DNA of 30,111 bases from a virus. Position numbers and translations under genes: made by a program. The DNA lies in IMG/VR virus record IMGVR_UViG_3300036901_000032, positions 1 through 30,111 of that record; one strand, given 5' to 3'. The notes beneath the pieces were generated by a model that worked only from the letters and a program-made list of their open reading frames with translations, did no database searches and was not told where the DNA came from. Of this stretch, positions 8,216 through 29,457 are shown one piece after another (position 1 is the first letter of the stretch; each line of letters opens with the position of its first letter).

Positions 8216-9195
8216 TAAACCCACGCTCCATTGTTGGGGTTCGTTTGATTCTGGTTTTGATTCTGATTCATCAGCGAATACAGCATCGCCGTCTGACTGA
8301 GATTGCCTGTAGCGCCCTGGACCGCGCCGCCGATTGCGTTGCCCGCACCCACGTAACCGGATGCCGTCGCGGCGGCCGCATTGGTGTTCTGCTGGCCGAT
8401 CTGCTGGCCCGTGGAGCTGAGCGTGTTGGCGATCTGCCCCGTCGATTGCAGCCCTTCGGTGTTCAAGGTCTGCGCGGTAGTCTGACCCGCGCCAGCCATC
8501 GAAGCCAGTTTGTTGTACTCGCTGGCCTGCTGATTCGCCCAGGTGTTGTAATTCGTGCCGTAGGTCTGAAGAGTCTGGTTGTAAACATTGTTATAATTCG
8601 TATCCGCGTAGTTTTGCCCATACTGATCGAGCGCCGCCTGCGTGCCTCCGGTGAGCAGCGTGCCATTCGCGGCGGCGCTGGCCTGTTGCGCGCCTTCGCC
8701 CTGCTGCAATCCGAACTGATAGCCGGGCGTGGCCTCTGCCTGTGCTGCGGTGGGAGCCTGAAACGGCCCTCCCTGGTAGCCCTGCATGAGCGAGCCGTAA
8801 GCGCCGAGCCCCGTCGAGGCTGTGCCCGTCGTGCTCGTAACTCCGGGTATGCTCACTGAGCCGTTGACGCCGGGAATCGAGAGCGTCTGCCCTGCGCTGG
8901 TGGCAGTCCCGCCGGGGCTGGGGTTCGCACCGCCAAGGCCGGTCAGATATTGGAGCGTTGCCTCGGCATTGTCGCCGCCCTGAAGGTACGGCTGGAGATT
9001 GGCCTGATTCTGCTGCTGCTGCTGCTCTTCGGCGGTGAGCGATTCTTGTCCGAGTTGCCCCTGAATGCCGGCATTGGTAGTCGCCGCGTTGGCCTGGGTG
9101 GACGCGGCATTTTGGGCGGCATTCGCGCCGATTAGCCCGCTGCCGATTGATCCAGCGAAGCCGACTCCCGCCATGATTCCGCCAGTTACCGACAT
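8215..9195 (-). CDS. DNA transfer/ejection protein, gp7-like
   Basis: This 326-residue protein begins with a Gly/Ala-rich hydrophobic stretch (residues 1-30, MSVTGGIMAGVGFAGSIGSG), then a Gln-rich linker. The central block contains GYQFGLQQGEGA, then NGTLLTGGTQAALDQYGQ, and a Tyr/Asn-rich stretch ending YNKLASMAGAGQTTAQ. This pattern recurs in podoviral DNA transfer proteins annotated as P22 p7/p32-like, which are packed in the capsid and help form the conduit across the cell envelope. The C-terminus is Asn/Gln-repeat-rich (NQNQNQ). The ATG overlaps the end of the GNAT gene by 10 nt. It is the first of the three ejection-type genes. Confidence 0.75.
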   Translation of the reverse strand: MSVTGGIMAGVGFAGSIGSGLIGANAAQNAASTQANAATTNAGIQGQLGQESLTAEEQQQQQNQANLQPYLQGGDNAEATLQYLTGLGGANPSPGGTATSAGQTLSIPGVNGSVSIPGVTSTTGTASTGLGAYGSLMQGYQGGPFQAPTAAQAEATPGYQFGLQQGEGAQQASAAANGTLLTGGTQAALDQYGQNYADTNYNNVYNQTLQTYGTNYNTWANQQASEYNKLASMAGAGQTTAQTLNTEGLQSTGQIANTLSSTGQQIGQQNTNAAAATASGYVGAGNAIGGAVQGATGNLSQTAMLYSLMNQNQNQNQTNPNNGAWV

Positions 9196-9647
9196 GCGCT
9201 CTCCTTCAATAGCTTCACAAATGTCTTGTCGCTGAATGTCCAGCCGAGCCGCTCAAGAAACTCGCTATGGTCTTCATGGACTTTGCAACTCGTGATAGCC
9301 TTCACGATGCCGCGCTTGAGCAACTCCCTCTCGCTGGCGATGAATAGTCTCGCGCCCACGCCCGCACGGTATTCGGGGAGCACATAGTACATATCCGTGA
9401 GCCCCATCGATCCCGCTGCTGCGTAGTGCGGGTGCGGCATGAGAAACCAGAGATAGTAACCAACCAACTTCCCCGAATATCTGGCCGTGAGGATCAGAAG
9501 AATGCCAGCCGCATCGAGGGTTGCATATTTCTCCTCATCAATCGAGAGCGGAATCTCGTCCTGATGCAGGGCCAATTCCTTCCAGTGCGAGGGAAAGAGC
9601 GCCTTGCTATCGGGATAGAACTGCGCCCATCGTTCGACTTTGATCAC
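9186..9647 (-). CDS. GNAT-family N-acyltransferase in the virion operon
   Basis: The 153-residue product reads as a single GNAT domain. Motif A is present as YVLPEYRAGVGARLF, with the acyl-CoA pyrophosphate loop RAGVGA at residues 94-99. The preceding beta strands (GKLVGYYLWF and GLTDMYYV) and a final FLERLGWTFSDK strand fit the fold. The start is GTG; the GTGA overlaps the stop of the ACP gene. GNAT enzymes transfer an acyl group, usually from CoA but in some members (FeeM-like N-acyl synthases) from ACP. Placement right after an ACP gene and before ejection protein genes suggests it acylates a virion or host envelope target, which is an inference. GNAT genes do occur in podoviral structural regions. 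Confidence 0.8.
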   Translation of the reverse strand: MIKVERWAQFYPDSKALFPSHWKELALHQDEIPLSIDEEKYATLDAAGILLILTARYSGKLVGYYLWFLMPHPHYAAAGSMGLTDMYYVLPEYRAGVGARLFIASERELLKRGIVKAITSCKVHEDHSEFLERLGWTFSDKTFVKLLKESACR

Positions 9648-9832
9648 TGCGCCTCACGAATCAAATCCGCAACGGTTTCCATATCGATTACGCGCTCCGA
9701 TGGAATGTTCAATTCCACCAGTAATTCGAGCAGCTCAAGCGAATCGAGGCCGAGCGAATCGAGCGATGTTTCCGGCGCAGCCGCCTTTCCGGTTTCGCGT
9801 TCGATGATCTCGCGGACGGTTATTGATGACAT
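9644..9832 (-). CDS. Phage-encoded acyl carrier protein
   Basis: A 62-residue acidic helical protein with the ACP signature LDSLGLDSLELLELLVELN. Ser31 of the DSL triad is the expected attachment site for 4-phosphopantetheine. It is somewhat shorter than the usual 75-80 residues, mainly through a short helix I (ITVREIIERETG). The ATG lies 13 nt inside the end of the tail-fibre gene and its stop overlaps the GTG of the GNAT gene, so all three are translationally linked. A longer in-frame reading upstream exists but lies inside the fibre gene. Activation would need a host phosphopantetheinyl transferase, since none is visible here. A dedicated carrier next to an acyltransferase suggests delivery of a specific acyl group. 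Confidence 0.8.
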   Translation of the reverse strand: MSSITVREIIERETGKAAAPETSLDSLGLDSLELLELLVELNIPSERVIDMETVADLIREAQ

Positions 9833-11274
9833 AGGTAAGTCAACTCGTAGGTGGTGCTGGCTGTGAGCGCAGAGGGCACAGTGAAAACCACATTCGCAGT
9901 ACCGTTTATTCCCCATTGCTGGCCGCTGACCCACGCGGTGCTTCCTTGCGTCACCCCGAACAGGCAATAAATTTGATGGCTGGAGTAATTGCCCCCGAAA
10001 TTCAGAGTGAATAATGTGCCGCTTGCGGGAGAGGTTCCCACCGCAATGTTGACTGTGCCGGCGAAATCATTGCTGTAGCCGTTGACCGCGATGGTGCCGC
10101 CGGTTCCATTAGCCGCTCCCACGGTGATCGAGGGCACGCTCGGGTTGGGCCCCACCCCTGGCGCCGCGGGGTTGCTGATTGCGACGGTGATCCAATACGG
10201 GGCCGCGCTGAACGCCACAACCCCCGTGCACGAGTTCGCCTCCGGGCTGATGGCCGGCGGATTAAGCAGAGTCGTGGGCCAGGCGAACGTATACCCGCCG
10301 GTCCCGTTCTGGCAAACGTCGATGAAAATGACCTGGCCCGCTTGACCTCCCGTGAGCGTGCTCGATGCCACATTCCCGGTCAGCGTGATCGTGAAATCCG
10401 AATAGCTTCCCGCGTTGAATACAGGCGTGGCGCTGAAGGCCAGGGCGTCGAGGAGTCCAGCAACGATCTGCTGGTTATTTGTCTCCATCACCCAATTGGA
10501 GCCGTTGTTATAGGCGGCAAGGATGGTGCAGTAACCAGAAATCTCATTGACATTCGGCAAGAAAAATCCTGGCGCAGCCGAAAGATTGGCCGGCCAAGCA
10601 AATGCATAGCCGTTGGCGCAGATGCTGAAGACGATGCGCTGCCCGGTCTGGCCGCCGGTGATAGTGCTAGACGTGACATTCCCGGTCAGCGACATGCTGA
10701 AATAACCGTAGGCGCTAGCGTTAAACACCGGCGTCGCGCTGAAAGCAACCGAACCGAAAGCGGAGGCGAGACTGGTAAAGGATCCCGCTGCCGGCGTCGT
10801 TCCGCCAATCGGCGTGCTCTCTATGTCCGATGTCGCAATCGTGACTCCGCTGATCACCGTGCCGGTCTGTGTGCCCCCACCGATGGCAGGATTGGTGATA
10901 GTCGCGCCGCTGATAGTGCCGTTCAGAAACGCGTCCCCAGGCACGTTGTCAACGGTCCACTGCAGCGAGCCGCTCGCGCAGTTCGTCCCGCCGGCGCTAT
11001 AGCCCACGAATTTGTAACTGTTCGTGCCCAGCCACATGACGGCGCTGCCAGTCGTATCGAGCGGAACAGGGTTGGGGTTGCTGGTTCCTCCCGTGTAATC
11101 GGTATACGTCGCCTGCGGGGTTGTGGTGCCGCCCTGATACGTGAAGATGCAACCGCCCGAGAGTGGCTGGCCTGTCGAGGTCAGGAAGGTGGCGCGGGGC
11201 GTACGGAAGGGTACTACCGGATTTTGCGCCATGGCGGGAAGCGCCAACAGAAGCAGCCATACCAGTTTCTTCAT
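9820..11274 (-). CDS. Tail fibre/appendage protein with signal peptide and phage N-terminal anchor-like domain
   Basis: The ATG at 11274 overlaps the previous stop (CTATGAAG) and gives 484 residues; a longer open frame upstream runs through neighbouring genes and is not used. Residues 1-17 are a signal peptide (MKKLVWLLLLALPAMAQ). Residues about 20-125 match a domain common at the N-termini of podoviral tail appendages: PRATFLTSTGQPLSGG, then TYQGGTTTPQATYTDYTGG and VPLDTTGSAVMWLG. Two about 102-residue repeats follow (about 177-278 and 279-375, each starting FSATPVFN). The C-terminal domain of about 80 residues is beta-rich and ends TTYELTYLCHQ. It sits where P22 encodes its needle gene, so it may substitute for or decorate the tail tip. 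Confidence 0.7.
   Translation of the reverse strand: MKKLVWLLLLALPAMAQNPVVPFRTPRATFLTSTGQPLSGGCIFTYQGGTTTPQATYTDYTGGTSNPNPVPLDTTGSAVMWLGTNSYKFVGYSAGGTNCASGSLQWTVDNVPGDAFLNGTISGATITNPAIGGGTQTGTVISGVTIATSDIESTPIGGTTPAAGSFTSLASAFGSVAFSATPVFNASAYGYFSMSLTGNVTSSTITGGQTGQRIVFSICANGYAFAWPANLSAAPGFFLPNVNEISGYCTILAAYNNGSNWVMETNNQQIVAGLLDALAFSATPVFNAGSYSDFTITLTGNVASSTLTGGQAGQVIFIDVCQNGTGGYTFAWPTTLLNPPAISPEANSCTGVVAFSAAPYWITVAISNPAAPGVGPNPSVPSITVGAANGTGGTIAVNGYSNDFAGTVNIAVGTSPASGTLFTLNFGGNYSSHQIYCLFGVTQGSTAWVSGQQWGINGTANVVFTVPSALTASTTYELTYLCHQ
10150..10746 (-). repeat. Two in-frame tandem modules inside the tail-fibre gene
   Basis: The unit starting FSATPVFNASAYGYFSMSL recurs 102 codons later as FSATPVFNAGSYSDFTITL. 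Both continue LTGNV.SST.TGGQ.GQ and end near FAWP. At DNA level a 16-nt block (acattcccggtcagcg) is identical at an offset of 306 nt. This is an intragenic duplication of a beta-rich module; boundaries are approximate. Confidence 0.75.
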
Positions 11275-13023: not shown

Positions 13024-13647
13024 ATGGCTAAAAGACTTGATTTGACAGGTTCGACCTTTGGGCGTTTGTACGTGATAACGCGCGGCATAAAACGCGGAGC
13101 AAAAACCGTCTGGGTATGTCAATGCACTTGCGGGAAACGCCGAGAAATCGCCACTTATCTGCTCACGAGCGGACAAACTCGCTCGTGCGGATGCTTGAAA
13201 AGCGAAACTACAACCGCCAAAAACCTTACTCATGGTCAGAGCGTGAGAGGAGCAACATCAGGCACCTATACTACATGGGCAAACATGATGCAGCGCTGCA
13301 TGAATCCTAACAATGACAACTTTATCAACTATGGGGGCCGTGGAATTACGGTTTGCGGCCGCTGGTTAGATTTCTCGAATTTCTTTTCCGATATGGGAAA
13401 GCGCCCAGCTAGAAAATCGCTCGAACGCGTCAACAACAGTGGAAATTACGAGCCCTCAAACTGCAAATGGGCAACATTTAGCGAACAGGCTCGCAATAAG
13501 CGGAACAACAGGATATTAAACTTTAAGGGAAGAAGTATGATGCTCTCTGAATGGTCGGAGCATCTTGGAATACGCCTCGGCACTCTCAGCCATCGCCTCT
13601 ATCACTACCATTGGAGCATAGAAAGAGTGCTTGGCACTCCTGTTTAG
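13024..13647 (+). CDS. HNH-type homing endonuclease-like protein
   Basis: The only plus-strand gene inside the minus-strand late operon. It encodes 207 residues. An N-terminal zinc-finger-like module has Cys32, 34, 36, 55 and 57. Then come the phage HNH hallmarks YGGRGITVCGRW (103-114) and LERVNNSGNYEPSNCKWAT (133-151), followed by a basic C-terminal DNA-binding region. Such free-standing endonucleases cut phage DNA and spread their own gene. Base use is visibly more A-rich than its neighbours, a sign of recent arrival. Its stop overlaps the end of the gp4-like gene tail-to-tail by 4 nt, and its ATG lies about 56 nt from the gp10-like start, so it fills exactly the gap between two genes that are adjacent in P22-like phages. 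Confidence 0.85.
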   Translation: MAKRLDLTGSTFGRLYVITRGIKRGAKTVWVCQCTCGKRREIATYLLTSGQTRSCGCLKSETTTAKNLTHGQSVRGATSGTYTTWANMMQRCMNPNNDNFINYGGRGITVCGRWLDFSNFFSDMGKRPARKSLERVNNSGNYEPSNCKWATFSEQARNKRNNRILNFKGRSMMLSEWSEHLGIRLGTLSHRLYHYHWSIERVLGTPV

Positions 13648-14495: not shown

Positions 14496-14626
14496 TACGT
14501 TTTCCTCTGCTGTGCCCGGTCGACAATTGGTTCATTGCGCTGCGCGAGCAGAATGGCAATCAGGCGCAGCCATGCGTTCGCGCTCAAATCGGTAGGAGCC
14601 AGAGCCTCAATCTCTTTGCGCGTCAT
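14495..14626 (-). CDS. Small 43-aa hypothetical protein
   Basis: The frame MTRKEIEALAPTDLSANAWL... has an ATG overlapping the glycosyltransferase stop (ATGA) and a TAA overlapping the gp4-like ATG. The product is helical and charged (an N-terminal acidic-basic helix, then RLIAILLAQRN). The overlaps at both ends favour a real, translationally coupled gene. Function unknown; no membrane segment or motif is recognised. Confidence 0.55.
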   Translation of the reverse strand: MTRKEIEALAPTDLSANAWLRLIAILLAQRNEPIVDRAQQRKT

Positions 14627-15324
14627 GCGGCTTTCGACCCTCCCGGCTGCCTCATCAGGAACTCGTGCAGATTGCCCGGATAAACCCTCTCCCCCTCATG
14701 ATGGTCAATGCTCAGATCCGGCACCAGCCAAATATCGCCGCATTTGTCCTTCCAGCGGCGCGCAAAAGAGTAATCCTCGCCCCACCAGAGGCGCCCGCTG
14801 ACCCCGTGATTGAACAGATCCACGGCAAGGTGATACATCGGTCCGTAACAGAGTTCAGGATAGGCAACCATGAACTCGTCAACCGCCTTGTTGGTGACTT
14901 TCAGGAAGCCGGCCGGAATCAGTTTCGCGCTGATTGCCCCATCGGAAACGCGCACCTTCGGGGTAAAGTCCGCGTTGACCTCCCACGAGCCCATGTAGAA
15001 CTCGGGCGTGGGGCCGTCTTCGGTCTTGCACCGATAGGTGCCGGAGACTACGTCGCCTTCCGTCTCGATCAGCTTGAGCAGGTCTTCCGGACGCCACGAA
15101 ACATCGTAATCGAGGAAGACGATTACCTGAGCATTCGCATCGAGAGCCGCGCGGAGCATGTTTGCGCGCGCGGCCGATATGTACTGGCAGGCGATTTGCT
15201 GGGCGTAGCCGTGCTCCCATCCAGCAGCCTCGATGAATGGAAGCGAGGCTTTCAGCGACTCGATATATGGCGCTGTGGGCCCCGCTAACGAAGGAGTACA
15301 GAAAACGACTTTCTTCTTATCCAT
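14623..15324 (-). CDS. Glycosyltransferase (GT-A type) in the head/tail operon
   Basis: 233 residues with a GT-A arrangement: an N-terminal strand KVVFCTPSLAG, the strand VIVFLDYDVSW carrying a DxD-type motif (Asp72-Tyr-Asp74) for metal and nucleotide-sugar, then GTYRCK and a late GEDYSFARRW (182-191) that resembles the catalytic ED motif of family 2 enzymes. No membrane segment is present, so it should act in the cytoplasm on a soluble substrate. It starts directly after the 79-aa gene and overlaps the next by ATGA. Its place among virion genes suggests glycosylation of a capsid or tail protein, or alteration of a host surface sugar; the substrate cannot be read from the sequence. Confidence 0.75.
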   Translation of the reverse strand: MDKKKVVFCTPSLAGPTAPYIESLKASLPFIEAAGWEHGYAQQIACQYISAARANMLRAALDANAQVIVFLDYDVSWRPEDLLKLIETEGDVVSGTYRCKTEDGPTPEFYMGSWEVNADFTPKVRVSDGAISAKLIPAGFLKVTNKAVDEFMVAYPELCYGPMYHLAVDLFNHGVSGRLWWGEDYSFARRWKDKCGDIWLVPDLSIDHHEGERVYPGNLHEFLMRQPGGSKAA

Positions 15325-16844: not shown

Positions 16845-17807
16845 TTACGGGTGTCCTCTGCGGGCTAGCTGCTGGTTGCGTTTCCGCGCCCAGTCGTCCG
16901 CAGAAAGGCTTTCGTCGCTCACGTCGAAGGCCCGCGAACTCGGTCCCGTCACGGGAGAAGGAGGCTTCGGGGCCGCAGTTCGCTTCGGTTCAGGAGGTTC
17001 TTTGGCATCGGATTCAGCGGGAGCAGCGATTTCGCGCCGAATATCGGCGGAAAGCTCAGCAATGTAGTACATGGCCTGTTGAGGATCGGTTTTGGCTACG
17101 CGAATCAACTTCTCCATCGTCTTCGGATCAGTCCCAAGGGTGTAAACCAAATCGGGCAGAACGTCCGAACCCGCCAGCATGCGTCTCACTTCCGGTGGAA
17201 TGGAAGTGTTGCTCATGATCGCCGCGGCGGTCGGCTCGATGACCTTATCGAACTCATCCCCGTACCGCTTGCGGTCCCTCTCAACCTTTTCCTGCACTTG
17301 CTGTATCTGCTGTTGCTGCGCGTCTCGCTGGCGCAATTCGTGGTGCGTCTGCTCTGCCGACCATTTGCCCAAATCCTTGACAAAAGCAGCAAGGTCCGCA
17401 TATTTCTGCGTCCCGTCGGCGTTCTTGTCATCTAGGGTAGGTTCTGGCCGGAGTATCGAGCGTTGCTGGTGTTGCGGCGCGGCGGACGGGGCCGGTTTTT
17501 CGTCTGGTTTTGCCTGCGCGGCCAGTTTGCGCTCTAACTCTTTGTTCTTAGCGAGCAGCGTCTCGAATCGCTTGCGAGCTTTGTTTCCGATGCCTTCCGG
17601 CAACTCCTGATCATCGCCCGTAGCCGCGGCGGGTTCATTTTCGGGCTCATCGCCCTCGGCTGGTGCATCTTCGGCGGGAGTGAATCTGGCTGGGACTTCC
17701 CCGCTCACACGGTACGCATTAAACTCGCTGAGGGTTGGGGCCTGTCCGTTAAACGGATCTGCTTCAACTGCGGGTGACGATTCCGCTTGCGTCGTTTCAA
17801 CTGACAT
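16845..17807 (-). CDS. Scaffolding protein
   Basis: 320 residues, highly charged and Glu/Ala/Pro-rich, sitting between portal and coat exactly as P22 gp8 (303 residues). The N-terminal third is acidic and disordered-looking; residues about 75-100 and 145-180 are coiled-coil-like (NKELERKLAAQ; QQQQIQQVQEKVERDRKRYG). The C-terminus is basic (DDWARKRNQQLARRGHP), as expected for the coat-binding helix-loop-helix of scaffolds. An upstream CAGGAG serves as ribosome site. It directs procapsid assembly and is not retained in the virion. Confidence 0.82.
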   Translation of the reverse strand: MSVETTQAESSPAVEADPFNGQAPTLSEFNAYRVSGEVPARFTPAEDAPAEGDEPENEPAAATGDDQELPEGIGNKARKRFETLLAKNKELERKLAAQAKPDEKPAPSAAPQHQQRSILRPEPTLDDKNADGTQKYADLAAFVKDLGKWSAEQTHHELRQRDAQQQQIQQVQEKVERDRKRYGDEFDKVIEPTAAAIMSNTSIPPEVRRMLAGSDVLPDLVYTLGTDPKTMEKLIRVAKTDPQQAMYYIAELSADIRREIAAPAESDAKEPPEPKRTAAPKPPSPVTGPSSRAFDVSDESLSADDWARKRNQQLARRGHP

Positions 17808-17859
17808 TCGGTTGTGCTCCTGTCCGTGCGCTGGACTAGCGGGGTGGTGCTAAACTTTT

Positions 17860-17881
17860 GGGACTTATACACTTGAGTCCC
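17860..17881 (-). other. Inverted repeat between E2-like and scaffold genes
   Basis: GGGACT and AGTCCC flank a 10-nt loop and begin at the stop codon of the E2-like gene. This falls in one of the few real gaps in the late operon (about 73 nt). It lacks a U-tract, so an RNA-processing or regulatory hairpin is more likely than a terminator. Confidence 0.35.
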
Positions 17882-18291
17882 TACTTCACGTAATTAAACC
17901 GCTGCTGGATGACCTTCATGTAGGTGAAAAGAGAGCTTTGGTTTGGGTTCCACATCTGCAAGTGCCATGACCACCACACGCACTCTTTCCACTGTGGCCA
18001 ACCTAATTGTTCCAGTTGTGCCCCGTTGGAGATGTTGACATTGTGCGGAATCGCTTTGTTTTTGGCGACTCGAATATCGATGTCTGTAAAGAAGTGGTCA
18101 GGACAAGCGGCAGGATAACCGGGCGGAGATATGAATAGAACCGTGCAAATAGTTGAATCCCACCCTTTCGGCAGTAGTATACCGGGCACCACTATTAGAT
18201 GGTATCCGTATTTATTCCGCTCCAAATGCGCCTGCGGCCAATTGGTTCTCAGCCGTTCAATCCCGTCTTCGATGTAGGGGTTAATCTGCAT
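17881..18291 (-). CDS. E2/UBC-like protein, prokaryotic E2 family E type
   Basis: 136 residues from the ATG at 18291, which has GGAGGG six nt upstream; an in-frame ATG at 18411, overlapping the portal stop, would add 40 residues. The core matches prokaryotic E2 family E: HLIVVPGILLPKGWDST (31-47), FISPPGYPAACPDHFFTD (53-70), then WPQW (98-101) and WSWHLQMWNPNQSS (107-120). The PPGYP...PD.F segment corresponds to the UBC strand-loop preceding the active site. Cys104 lies ten residues before the conserved Trp-Asn-Pro, near the catalytic Cys place, but the canonical HPN motif is degraded to PHN. In bacteria this family often lies with E1/ThiF, JAB peptidase and multi-ubiquitin genes; none is visible here. 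It is placed between portal and scaffold. Confidence 0.72.
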   Translation of the reverse strand: MQINPYIEDGIERLRTNWPQAHLERNKYGYHLIVVPGILLPKGWDSTICTVLFISPPGYPAACPDHFFTDIDIRVAKNKAIPHNVNISNGAQLEQLGWPQWKECVWWSWHLQMWNPNQSSLFTYMKVIQQRFNYVK

Positions 18292-18407
18292 TTTCCCTCC
18301 AAGGGAGTTAAGTGCGTAATTCCCAAACTTTTGGCGTCCCAGGGCATTTGTGGGAACCCATGGCGAACGGAATGCCGCCGGTCGTAGCGCAAATCTCGCC
18401 AACTTGC

Positions 18408-20507
18408 TCATTCTGCTCCTGAATCGGGTGGCTGCAAATCTGCCTGCTGTTGCTGTTGGGACTGCATCGAGTCCTGCGATGACTGCATAGACTGCTGTGC
18501 GGCGTTCTGCTGCCCCATAGCCATTTGGTGGGCATTGTCAACAGCCTGCTCGGCTGCCGACGCTGCTTGCTTGTGAAATTGTGCTTCCAGCGCCCGCCGA
18601 TCGGCTTCCCGGTCGGCCGCATTCTGCGCCTTGGTATTGATCTCAGCGACGGTTACGGCGGTGAGCAGTTTCTTATCTTCCAACGCCATATCGGCCTGCG
18701 ACTTGGCCTGAATCTCGGCCATCTTGCCGTGATGCTCAAGAACCTTCGCCTCGCGCTCCAGCGTGAACTTCGCCAGTTGCCCGTGCATAATTTGAATCTG
18801 CTGGTGGGCTTGAGAAATCTGCGCTTGCGCCTGCGGGGGGAGGGGCTCTTCCTGATCCTGCAACTGCGGCGGCAGCATCTTATGCAACCGCTCGGCTGCC
18901 TGGTCGGCGCCGGCCATATCGGAGTTCTGCATCATGATATCGCCGAGGATCGGAACCATGGTAGGCACGGAGCGTATCAATTCCTGAATGAAATCGAATG
19001 TCTCCATGCGCTTAGTATCGAATGCGCGGCCCATTGTAACCACCAGCGGCACGCGATTCCCGGCAATCTTGTAATGGTGCTTCTTTCCCCCTTCGTCTGC
19101 ATACTCCGCGTTGATGGTAACCACCTTGGATTTCTCATCCGGCCCGAGGATCGTCACTTCGCGCTCCGTGTCGTAAATCTTGGGAATCATTTCCTCGATA
19201 ATGTCGCCGGCCTGCCTGAATGACCGTTCCAGGTTATCGAGAAAGTGCATCGTAGTCAGGTTCGCCGATTGTTGACGCGCCCCGATGGCCTTGGCGCTGG
19301 TTTCGTTGCTCTGCGCGCCCATTGAGGCGTCGTAAATTCCCGTCGTGGCCTTCATGTCGTCGATTTCCTGCGCTACGGCCGCAGAAAGAGATTGAACCGG
19401 AGCTTCCTGCACTTGCCGCTCCGGTGGCGGCGCTGGCCGTCCGGCCACATCGATGACGTTGTAGGTGAGAAATGGGCGAGACTCACGGTTTAACGCAGCC
19501 CATTGCGCTTCGAAACCGGCAATCTGCCCATTTGCCACCATGAAAGGCGACACCGGCGACACCGTAATTGTTTCGGCAATACGAGACTTATAGTAATTGA
19601 TTAGCTGTTGGGCCGATTTCTGCGACCGCACTACCGATGACAGCCTTGGCTTGCCCTCGATGATCATCTGCTTGCCCAGCACGGGAATAATCGGAATTTC
19701 CGAGCCCGCCCATTCGGTTTTCGACGATTCGCCGTCTTCGCCTGGCAGCACTTCGAGCCCATTGATCTTGCAGAACTGGACTTTCGACTTTGGTCGCCGC
19801 TTGCCCTTCACCTTCTCCTGCTCAATCCACCAGTATTCCGCGATCCGCACCGTATCTGAGCCAATCCAGCCCTCTGCGCGTACTCCGGCGGCGTCCCAGG
19901 ATAGCGAAGCCATTTCGCTATCACCGTAAAGCGCCTTGTATTCCTCTTTCGGAACTTCCTCAACCACGAAGCCAAAACGCGGCTTGCGATTGAAACAGGT
20001 TGGGACCACAATCCCATACACGGTTAGCGGGTCCATTACCGGAACAATCTTCAAATCGAGCTCGTCGCTCTCTTCGTCGCAATACTCGGTCAGAAAGCGG
20101 TAATAGCCGAATGAGCCGCCCGCGCTATACTCGATGGCCGTCTCGTAGGCAATCTGCGCATTCGATTCGTATTGGATGAAGCGCGCCAGCCCCTCATAGA
20201 CCTCCGACGTGTCCTTGTCTGAATCCAGGCGCGGCGCGAACTTGACCTGCGGCTTGTTCTGGCGCGCTTCGTTCGATACCTGCTGCACGAACGTGTGGCA
20301 TCGGGGGAAAGCCATTGCAGGCCGCCCGGCCATCTCGCGTTGCAACTTGATTTGCGGATCCCACTGATCGTCACCATCCGGGGATGCCAGTTTCAGGTCT
20401 TCAACGAACTTGCGCCGAAGTTCGCGTTCATCCTCGGCTGCGGCTGCAAACCGCTTCCGAGCCGTCGCCATGAAATCGATAGTCTTGCTGTCGTTCTCGT
20501 CGGCCAT
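18408..20507 (-). CDS. Portal protein, P22 gp1-like
   Basis: 699 residues (P22 portal is 725). The N-terminus (FVEDLKLASPDGDDQWDPQI) and the following CHTFVQQVSNEARQNKPQVK and YESNAQIAYETAIEYSAGGS are hallmarks of P22-type portals. The C-terminal third is a long Gln/Ala-rich helical region (about 570-699) like the barrel helix. It forms the dodecameric ring at one vertex for DNA entry and tail docking. Its start overlaps the stop of the 43-aa gene (TAATG) and its stop overlaps an ATG of the downstream E2-like frame (ATGA). Confidence 0.92.
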   Translation of the reverse strand: MADENDSKTIDFMATARKRFAAAAEDERELRRKFVEDLKLASPDGDDQWDPQIKLQREMAGRPAMAFPRCHTFVQQVSNEARQNKPQVKFAPRLDSDKDTSEVYEGLARFIQYESNAQIAYETAIEYSAGGSFGYYRFLTEYCDEESDELDLKIVPVMDPLTVYGIVVPTCFNRKPRFGFVVEEVPKEEYKALYGDSEMASLSWDAAGVRAEGWIGSDTVRIAEYWWIEQEKVKGKRRPKSKVQFCKINGLEVLPGEDGESSKTEWAGSEIPIIPVLGKQMIIEGKPRLSSVVRSQKSAQQLINYYKSRIAETITVSPVSPFMVANGQIAGFEAQWAALNRESRPFLTYNVIDVAGRPAPPPERQVQEAPVQSLSAAVAQEIDDMKATTGIYDASMGAQSNETSAKAIGARQQSANLTTMHFLDNLERSFRQAGDIIEEMIPKIYDTEREVTILGPDEKSKVVTINAEYADEGGKKHHYKIAGNRVPLVVTMGRAFDTKRMETFDFIQELIRSVPTMVPILGDIMMQNSDMAGADQAAERLHKMLPPQLQDQEEPLPPQAQAQISQAHQQIQIMHGQLAKFTLEREAKVLEHHGKMAEIQAKSQADMALEDKKLLTAVTVAEINTKAQNAADREADRRALEAQFHKQAASAAEQAVDNAHQMAMGQQNAAQQSMQSSQDSMQSQQQQQADLQPPDSGAE

Positions 20508-28830: not shown

Positions 28831-28875
28831 CAGTTGACCCGGCGTGGCAGCAAGCGCCGGCGGAGAGGTAAGCGA

Positions 28876-29457
28876 ATGGCAGAATCGTATCCGCTGGCGT
28901 GGCCGGATGGATGGAAGCGCACGGCGTATCGCAAGAATAGCGCGTTTGCTATCCCCACAATCGGCGCGGTGAGCAAGCGCGTATTGAAGGAACTGAAGTT
29001 GCTCGGGGCTTCTTCTGTCGTGGTTTCCACGAATCTTATGCTTCGGAGTGACGGACTGCCCTACTCGAATCAGCGCCAGCCAGAGGATCCTGGAGTGGCT
29101 GTCTACTTTCTCTACAAGGACAAGCGGATGTGCTTCGCTTGCGACAGTTACCGGAAAATTGAGGAGAATCTGGTTGCTATCGCGAAGACGATTGAAGCTC
29201 TTCGCGGCATGGCGCGGTGGGGTGCATCGCAGATGATGGAGCGGGCCTTTACCGGATTTTCCGCTTTGCCTGCCAAGACGGGCCGTGAGTGGTGGGAGAT
29301 TTTGAACGTTTCTCGCCAAGCCGATAAGGGCAGTATTGAGACGCAATTCCGCTACTTGGCGAAGACGGCGCACCCTGACACTCCGACTGGAAGCCATCAA
29401 GCGATGGCGGAACTTAACCGCGCCCGCGAAGAGGCACTGAAAGAGGTAACCGCATGA
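28876..29457 (+). CDS. J-domain-containing protein
   Basis: ATG at 28876, with GGAGAGGTAAG upstream, gives 193 residues; an earlier TTG start would add a basic tail. The N-terminal two-thirds is a small unknown alpha-beta domain (MAESYPLAWPDGWKRTAYRK, later VAVYFLYKDKRMCFACD). The C-terminal 60 residues form a J-domain: WWEILNVSRQADK, FRYLAKTAHPDTP with His166-Pro167-Asp168 of the HPD motif, and NRAREEALKE. J-domains stimulate host DnaK. Recruitment of Hsp70 for replication or assembly is inferred. Confidence 0.8.
   Translation: MAESYPLAWPDGWKRTAYRKNSAFAIPTIGAVSKRVLKELKLLGASSVVVSTNLMLRSDGLPYSNQRQPEDPGVAVYFLYKDKRMCFACDSYRKIEENLVAIAKTIEALRGMARWGASQMMERAFTGFSALPAKTGREWWEILNVSRQADKGSIETQFRYLAKTAHPDTPTGSHQAMAELNRAREEALKEVTA

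Follow-up and report, generated by a model that had tools for sequence, protein, structure and literature searches.

The window analysed here is the whole of a 30,111-nucleotide stretch of viral DNA (IMG/VR virus record IMGVR_UViG_3300036901_000032, positions 1 to 30,111), in which a gene for a small E2-like protein lies between the portal and scaffold genes. An original prediction had described its open reading frame (ORF) with the peptides PPGYPAACPD and WSWHLQMWNPN, placed it between portal and scaffold, and credited it with a GGAGGG ribosome-binding site of its own, all of which we recovered: the ORF is present with both peptides as quoted, the neighbours are identified by matches to phrog_156 and phrog_8865, and the GGAGGG stands three bases upstream of the ATG (Table 1). 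Portal, E2-like gene and scaffold all run in one direction. What had been missed are the borders of the gene: inverted repeats of 22 bp with, outside them, a perfect direct repeat of 8 bp. In gene orientation the order is AAAAGTTT-GGGAATTACGCACTTAACTCCC-...gene...-GGGACTCAAGTGTATAAGTCCC-AAAAGTTT. The fit is tight: the last base of the TAG stop codon (17881) is also the innermost base of the 3'-side repeat, the E2 ORF fills the element as its only passenger, and both ends match the consensus of a family of same-ended elements with 0 mismatches. The window record has no match to the corresponding transposase (PF12762). The E2-like gene is thus very probably the single passenger of a non-autonomous cassette with IS1595-type ends, encoding a protein of BubB-type origin, and its position in the head-gene block would be due to insertion of the cassette there.

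Table 1. Coordinates of the E2-like gene, its cassette and the adjoining head genes in the window.
Feature	Positions	Strand	Evidence
Mobile insertion cassette, 465 bp, IS1595-type ends, without transposase	17860..18324	minus	terminal inverted repeat pair and 8-bp target-site duplication
Target-site duplication copy 1, AAACTTTT	17852..17859		exact match to 18325-18332
Terminal inverted repeat GGGACTTATACACTTGAGTCCC, 3' side of gene	17860..17881		17/22 bases match other end
Passenger gene, Prok-E2_E / BubB-type E2-like protein	17881..18291	minus	136 aa, ATG start; PF14462
Shine-Dalgarno GGAGGG of the E2 gene, within cassette	18295..18300	minus	sequence
Terminal inverted repeat GGGAGTTAAGTGCGTAATTCCC, 5' side of gene	18303..18324		pairs with 17860..17881 repeat
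Target-site duplication copy 2, AAACTTTT	18325..18332		exact match to copy 1
Scaffold gene, downstream neighbour of E2	16845..17807	minus	phrog_8865, E=2.7e-22
Portal gene, upstream neighbour of E2	18408..20507	minus	phrog_156, E=3.8e-99

The assignment to the E2/UBC proteins, also made in the original prediction, held up in a profile search, in which PF14462 (Prok-E2_E) matched residues 30-132 of the window protein with E=4.7e-10 and 39.7 bits, above the curated cut-off of 25. Because the gene and its closest homologue show identities of 0.82, 0.88 and 0.46 at first, second and third codon positions, we read the ORF as a coding gene under purifying selection and not as a chance frame. The protein matched nothing in PADLOC or PHROGs, and a tblastn search of 50,697 phage records with it returned no match.

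Absence of the gene from related phages

The prediction had called for a survey of related phages for conservation of the gene between portal and scaffold. Among 29 phage contigs encoding a relative of the window's portal, 24 of which also showed a scaffold match (some of them partial), tblastn detected no E2 gene, neither in the 29 portal-relative loci nor in the 24 where both genes were seen, and the gene is accordingly not a conserved part of this block. Portal and scaffold stand 600 bp apart in the window and 19 to 243 bp apart in the nine relatives examined closely. Recognisable near-empty sites with a single copy of the target occur in L152 (GGCGCAAGTTTAGTACCAAATCGCTAGTCCGGCG) and L145 (GCGCTAAAGTTTAGCACCA), to be compared with GACGCCAAAAGTTTAGCACCACCCCGCTAGTCCAGCG, the window minus one duplication; towards the scaffold these two contigs are plainly homologous to the window junction, while towards the portal, where gene ends vary, the homology covers a short length. 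At the position of the cassette, L145 and the junction of L149, L150 and L168 have unrelated short stretches that resemble small ORFs.

An element built like that of the window was found in L004, a contig of an Acidobacteriaceae genome (PLHP01000145.1), in which an E2 protein 75% identical to that of the window is flanked by a different duplication, AAACTAAT. Nearby ORFs, by our reading of their sequences, resemble genes for a thioredoxin reductase, a GAF protein and a histidine kinase more than phage genes.

These findings bear on the proposal, put forward in the original prediction, that the protein is a head-assembly factor or a non-catalytic UEV-like factor of a P22-like phage and resides in the structural block by function. 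The gene's location between portal and scaffold, its strand and its own Shine-Dalgarno sequence are all as such a role would have them, but a gene that is missing from the relatives surveyed, is bounded by transposon ends and a target duplication, has a close counterpart riding a similar cassette among non-phage genes of a bacterial chromosome, and has its other phage homologues in non-structural regions is very hard to reconcile with it, and we consider a head-assembly role highly improbable. A passenger gene brought in by a transposon-like cassette accounts for these observations. The junction itself may be one that tolerates accessory sequence, and hence a hot spot for accessory genes.

Same-ended elements and their cargos

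The ends of the cassette recur in viral and acidobacterial DNA. Scans of viral contigs with two terminal-inverted-repeat patterns returned 72 and 33 stretches, and in the acidobacterial order 20 of 298 genomes had a match to the cassette ends, against no more than single matches in three of the genomes listed for the reversed control pattern. From the viral and acidobacterial DNA searched we counted 69 distinct repeat pairs spaced 150-2600 bp apart. Their flanking 8-mers were identical at all eight positions in 47 pairs and at seven of eight in 4 further pairs; control 8-mers taken 10 bp further out never exceeded 6/8 identity in any of the 69. Once copies of the same insertion were merged, 45 distinct insertions with an exact 8-bp duplication remained, and their duplications are 86% A+T as against 43% in the flanking DNA. 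Eight of these insertions contain IS1595-family transposases and one an internally deleted copy.

Nine of the same-ended pairs contain IS1595/ISXO2 transposase sequence (PF12762, E about 1e-40), and loci retrieved by the same ends from acidobacterial genomes G189, G187, G198 and G206 contain homologous transposases (61-91%). ISKra4 was considered as the source of the ends and rejected: its transposase (NF033572) was present in 2 of 24 genomes, the full copy lacked these ends, and IS1595 was found instead. Two elements combine transposase and passenger, L057 (2206-4050), with an intact IS1595 transposase beside a Mom-family gene (E=1.6e-13), and L095 (2668-3963), with an internally deleted one beside a methyltransferase-like gene; their gene content suggests that they are stages by which a passenger-bearing insertion sequence turns into a cassette lacking transposase. 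Among the carriers are phage contigs, as evident from a portal beside the element of L059, a terminase in L061, and a DnaB helicase and an integrase in L090. In one further genome, G271, there are 35 near-matches to the cassette ends, many of them near contig ends, a pattern that suggests a multi-copy element breaking the assembly.

Apart from those bearing a transposase, most elements have a single main ORF, preceded by a good Shine-Dalgarno sequence. DNA methyltransferases are found in L058, L144, L092/L081 and L084 (twice), with weaker matches in L069 and L095; the other recognisable cargos are Mom (L057, and weakly L090), NUDIX (L061) and MazG (L042), and many cargos were not recognised. 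Judged by eye, related cargos appear more than once, between differing duplications, in several cases, for example L028/L043/L046, and L038 from a virus contig with L098 from genome G001. The cargo shares the strand of both neighbouring ORFs in 27 of 28 scorable elements, a count that comes from a crude ORF caller and includes at least two repeat sightings (L081/L092, L135/L140), so that we treat co-orientation of cargo and neighbours as suggestive only.

Ancestry and possible role of the E2-like protein

After L004, the closest homologues of the window protein are L002 (69% identity), L174 (66%) and L003 (59%), and these four form one clade with it (support 100/99) that lies inside a clade (100/100) with the E2 proteins L015, L016, L186 and L187 of acidobacterial genomes. 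In L174 (347-775) the E2 homologue is located upstream of an integrase-like ORF, with a degenerate GGGACTATACAC just before its start codon, which as a decayed cassette end is too weak to call.

Genomes of this acidobacterial group have operons consisting of Multi_ubiq, Prok-E2_E, JAB-ThiF and DUF6527 genes. The crystal structures 9eae and 9eav, which go by the name BubB, are matched by a host acidobacterial E2 (E=1.4e-10), a joint profile that includes the phage proteins matches BubB at 4.2e-13, and the phage E2 profile aligned to that of the host operon E2s with hhalign at 98% probability and E=2.9e-13, in line with the E2/UBC assignment discussed above. The remark in the original prediction that an E1/ThiF and a ubiquitin-like gene are missing also stands, in that neither a ThiF nor a multi-ubiquitin gene occurs within the 30-kb record, nor were Multi_ubiq or ThiF found in the L002, L003 and L174 records, which are possibly fragments; no search was made for DUF6527. 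Because neither gene was found with it, the window protein classifies by sequence as a BubB-type E2 and not as a Bub system. Within the class, 16 of 299 genomes contain Prok-E2_E, a patchy distribution that would fit a defence-like target.

The original prediction offered Cys104 as a candidate active-site residue. We reject it because two of the four close homologues (L002 and L174) lack it. The wider E2 family has no invariant cysteine at all, and so does not show the conserved catalytic cysteine of canonical cysteine E2s. What is retained is a different motif: W-S-x-H (Ser108/His110) is invariant across the family, a W-S-R-H...W site is common to twelve host proteins, and the window protein keeps W106, S108, H110 and W114, which together with P116 are among the residues found invariant in a first alignment of phage and host proteins. 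By way of background, Bub is linked with a serine-based (oxyester) mechanism, which we did not use as evidence. Structure prediction was less informative. A first AlphaFold2 model was weak (predicted local distance difference test score, pLDDT, of 56), and Foldseek returned no match for it at E<=0.001; a later model, also weak (pLDDT 65; predicted template modelling score 0.66), has as structural neighbours mostly UEV, BubB (9eae), Cap2, RWD and UBC entries, with Z <=3.9. The later model is consistent with a UBC fold of the window protein, but not proof of one.

As no E1 gene and no gene for a ubiquitin-like protein (Ubl) was found in the four phage records, possibly fragments, the protein could act on a Bub-like pathway of the host, perhaps by diverting activated Ubl in the manner of a decoy or rogue E2. 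That it interferes with the host Bub pathway is the likeliest of the roles considered, yet a tentative proposal, which we would put somewhat short of an even chance. The original suggestion that the phage counters a ubiquitin-like system of its host may thus hold, with circumstantial support from the acidobacterial Bub-operon origin of the gene and from the DNA-modification cargos of the sister cassettes.

Instead of blocking the pathway, an active E2 might borrow E1 and Ubl from the host and attach the latter to a particular target, such as a host protein or a competing phage, to the advantage of the phage. In favour of such an enzyme are the residues W106, S108, H110, W114 and P116, invariant and common to the operon E2s, and the strong purifying selection on the gene, and the phage records searched encode no E1 or Ubl of their own; no target or interaction is known, however, and with E2_E in so few genomes of the class a suitable host pathway would often be absent, which makes this alternative rather unlikely. 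The protein might also be used outside ubiquitin-like conjugation altogether, or the cassette might be selfish, its cargo kept for reasons other than defence. Cargos are indeed diverse, many of them of no known function, and the multi-ubiquitin gene was not found in the bacterial genome assembly that holds one E2 cassette. Conservation of the family motif, the placement of the protein among operon E2s and the recurrence of recognisable DNA-modification genes among the cargos speak against such an unrelated role, and we regard it as improbable, if well short of negligible.

Other genes of the window

Four further loci of the window stand out. At 9186-9967, within the tail-side block, a gene resembling GNAT acetyltransferases (PF00583, E=1.5e-6) adjoins one whose small product has the phosphopantetheine site of acyl carriers (PF00550, E=2.1e-6). 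An ORF of 207 aa on the plus strand (13024-13647), opposite to the minus-strand structural genes around it and with no Pfam match, is possibly a mobile gene of the endonuclease type. Beside the coat-side genes lies a gene (14623-15324) for a weakly glycosyltransferase-like protein (phrog_1574; PF00535, E=0.003), and a protein with a C-terminal DnaJ domain (28834-29457; E=9.7e-7) is encoded next to the ERF and YqaJ recombination genes.

Discussion

We propose that the 465-bp cassette inserted at an A/T-rich site between portal and scaffold, duplicating AAACTTTT, and that an autonomous copy elsewhere would have provided the IS1595 transposase acting on it in trans. Since a simple scan of the cassette region found no promoter-like site, the co-directional E2 gene would presumably depend on read-through transcription from the late head operon, with translation from its own ribosome-binding site.

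Several points weigh against this account. The phage homologues L002, L003 and L174 have no recognisable inverted repeats nearby, and the E2 gene therefore also occurs outside cassettes. No transposase was found in the window record, and those of the IS1595 family in G001, where the other E2 cassette lies, share no more than 29-48% identity with a query from a same-ended element, so that the helper of the E2 cassette is a putative one. Movement of the cassette, production of the E2 protein, its charging with Ubl and its relevance to Bub are likewise putative. Bub, finally, is a putative immune pathway for which protection against phage has not been demonstrated (PMC13373217, 2026).

With these points in mind, a passenger gene in an IS1595-ended cassette has consequences beyond the window. 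Such cassettes explain how single accessory genes come to stand between conserved phage structural genes, as miniature-transposon passengers with clean borders and a ribosome-binding site of their own, and the 22-bp ends together with the 8-bp duplication provide a searchable signature for accessory genes in uncultured phages. The small E2 is a candidate protein for asking whether phages act on Bub-type ubiquitin-like pathways. The broader idea, that soil phages share one-gene IS1595-ended cassettes as interchangeable counter-defence modules and that this E2 is the first phage-borne saboteur or hijacker of a Bub-type pathway, is speculative and, taken as a whole, somewhat doubtful.

In the literature searched, which left most subscription papers outside, we found no report of very small one-gene IS1595-ended phage cassettes with DNA-modification genes and an E2. 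Related arrangements are known. PMC3129680 (citing De Palmenaer 2004 and Siguier 2009) describes mobile insertion cassettes (MICs; e.g., IS231-MIC231) and passenger-bearing insertion sequence (IS) copies, the 'transporter ISs', which include the IS1595 family. The likeness lies in a transposase-less element with IS-family ends that is activated by a related transposase, and here, too, relatives with both transposase and passenger exist; the present cassettes differ in being very small (212-1426 bp for most), in usually holding one gene with its own ribosome-binding site between the ends, and in occurring largely on phage contigs with accessory genes of phage type. ISApl4, also of the IS1595 family, has ends starting GGGG/GGG and A/T-rich 8-bp duplications, as do the present elements, but is autonomous, with 14-bp repeats and without a passenger gene (PMC12561309). 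Integron gene cassettes reported from phages (PMC9892861) are likewise small mobile gene cassettes in phage genomes, although the ends here are IS1595-type inverted repeats with target duplications and not attC sites. At the level of the protein, the window E2 and BubB (PDB 9eae, 9eav) have in common W-S-x-H followed by W-N/R-P, whereas the phage gene is an orphan, with no Ubl or E1 found alongside, and the phage proteins form a clade of their own.
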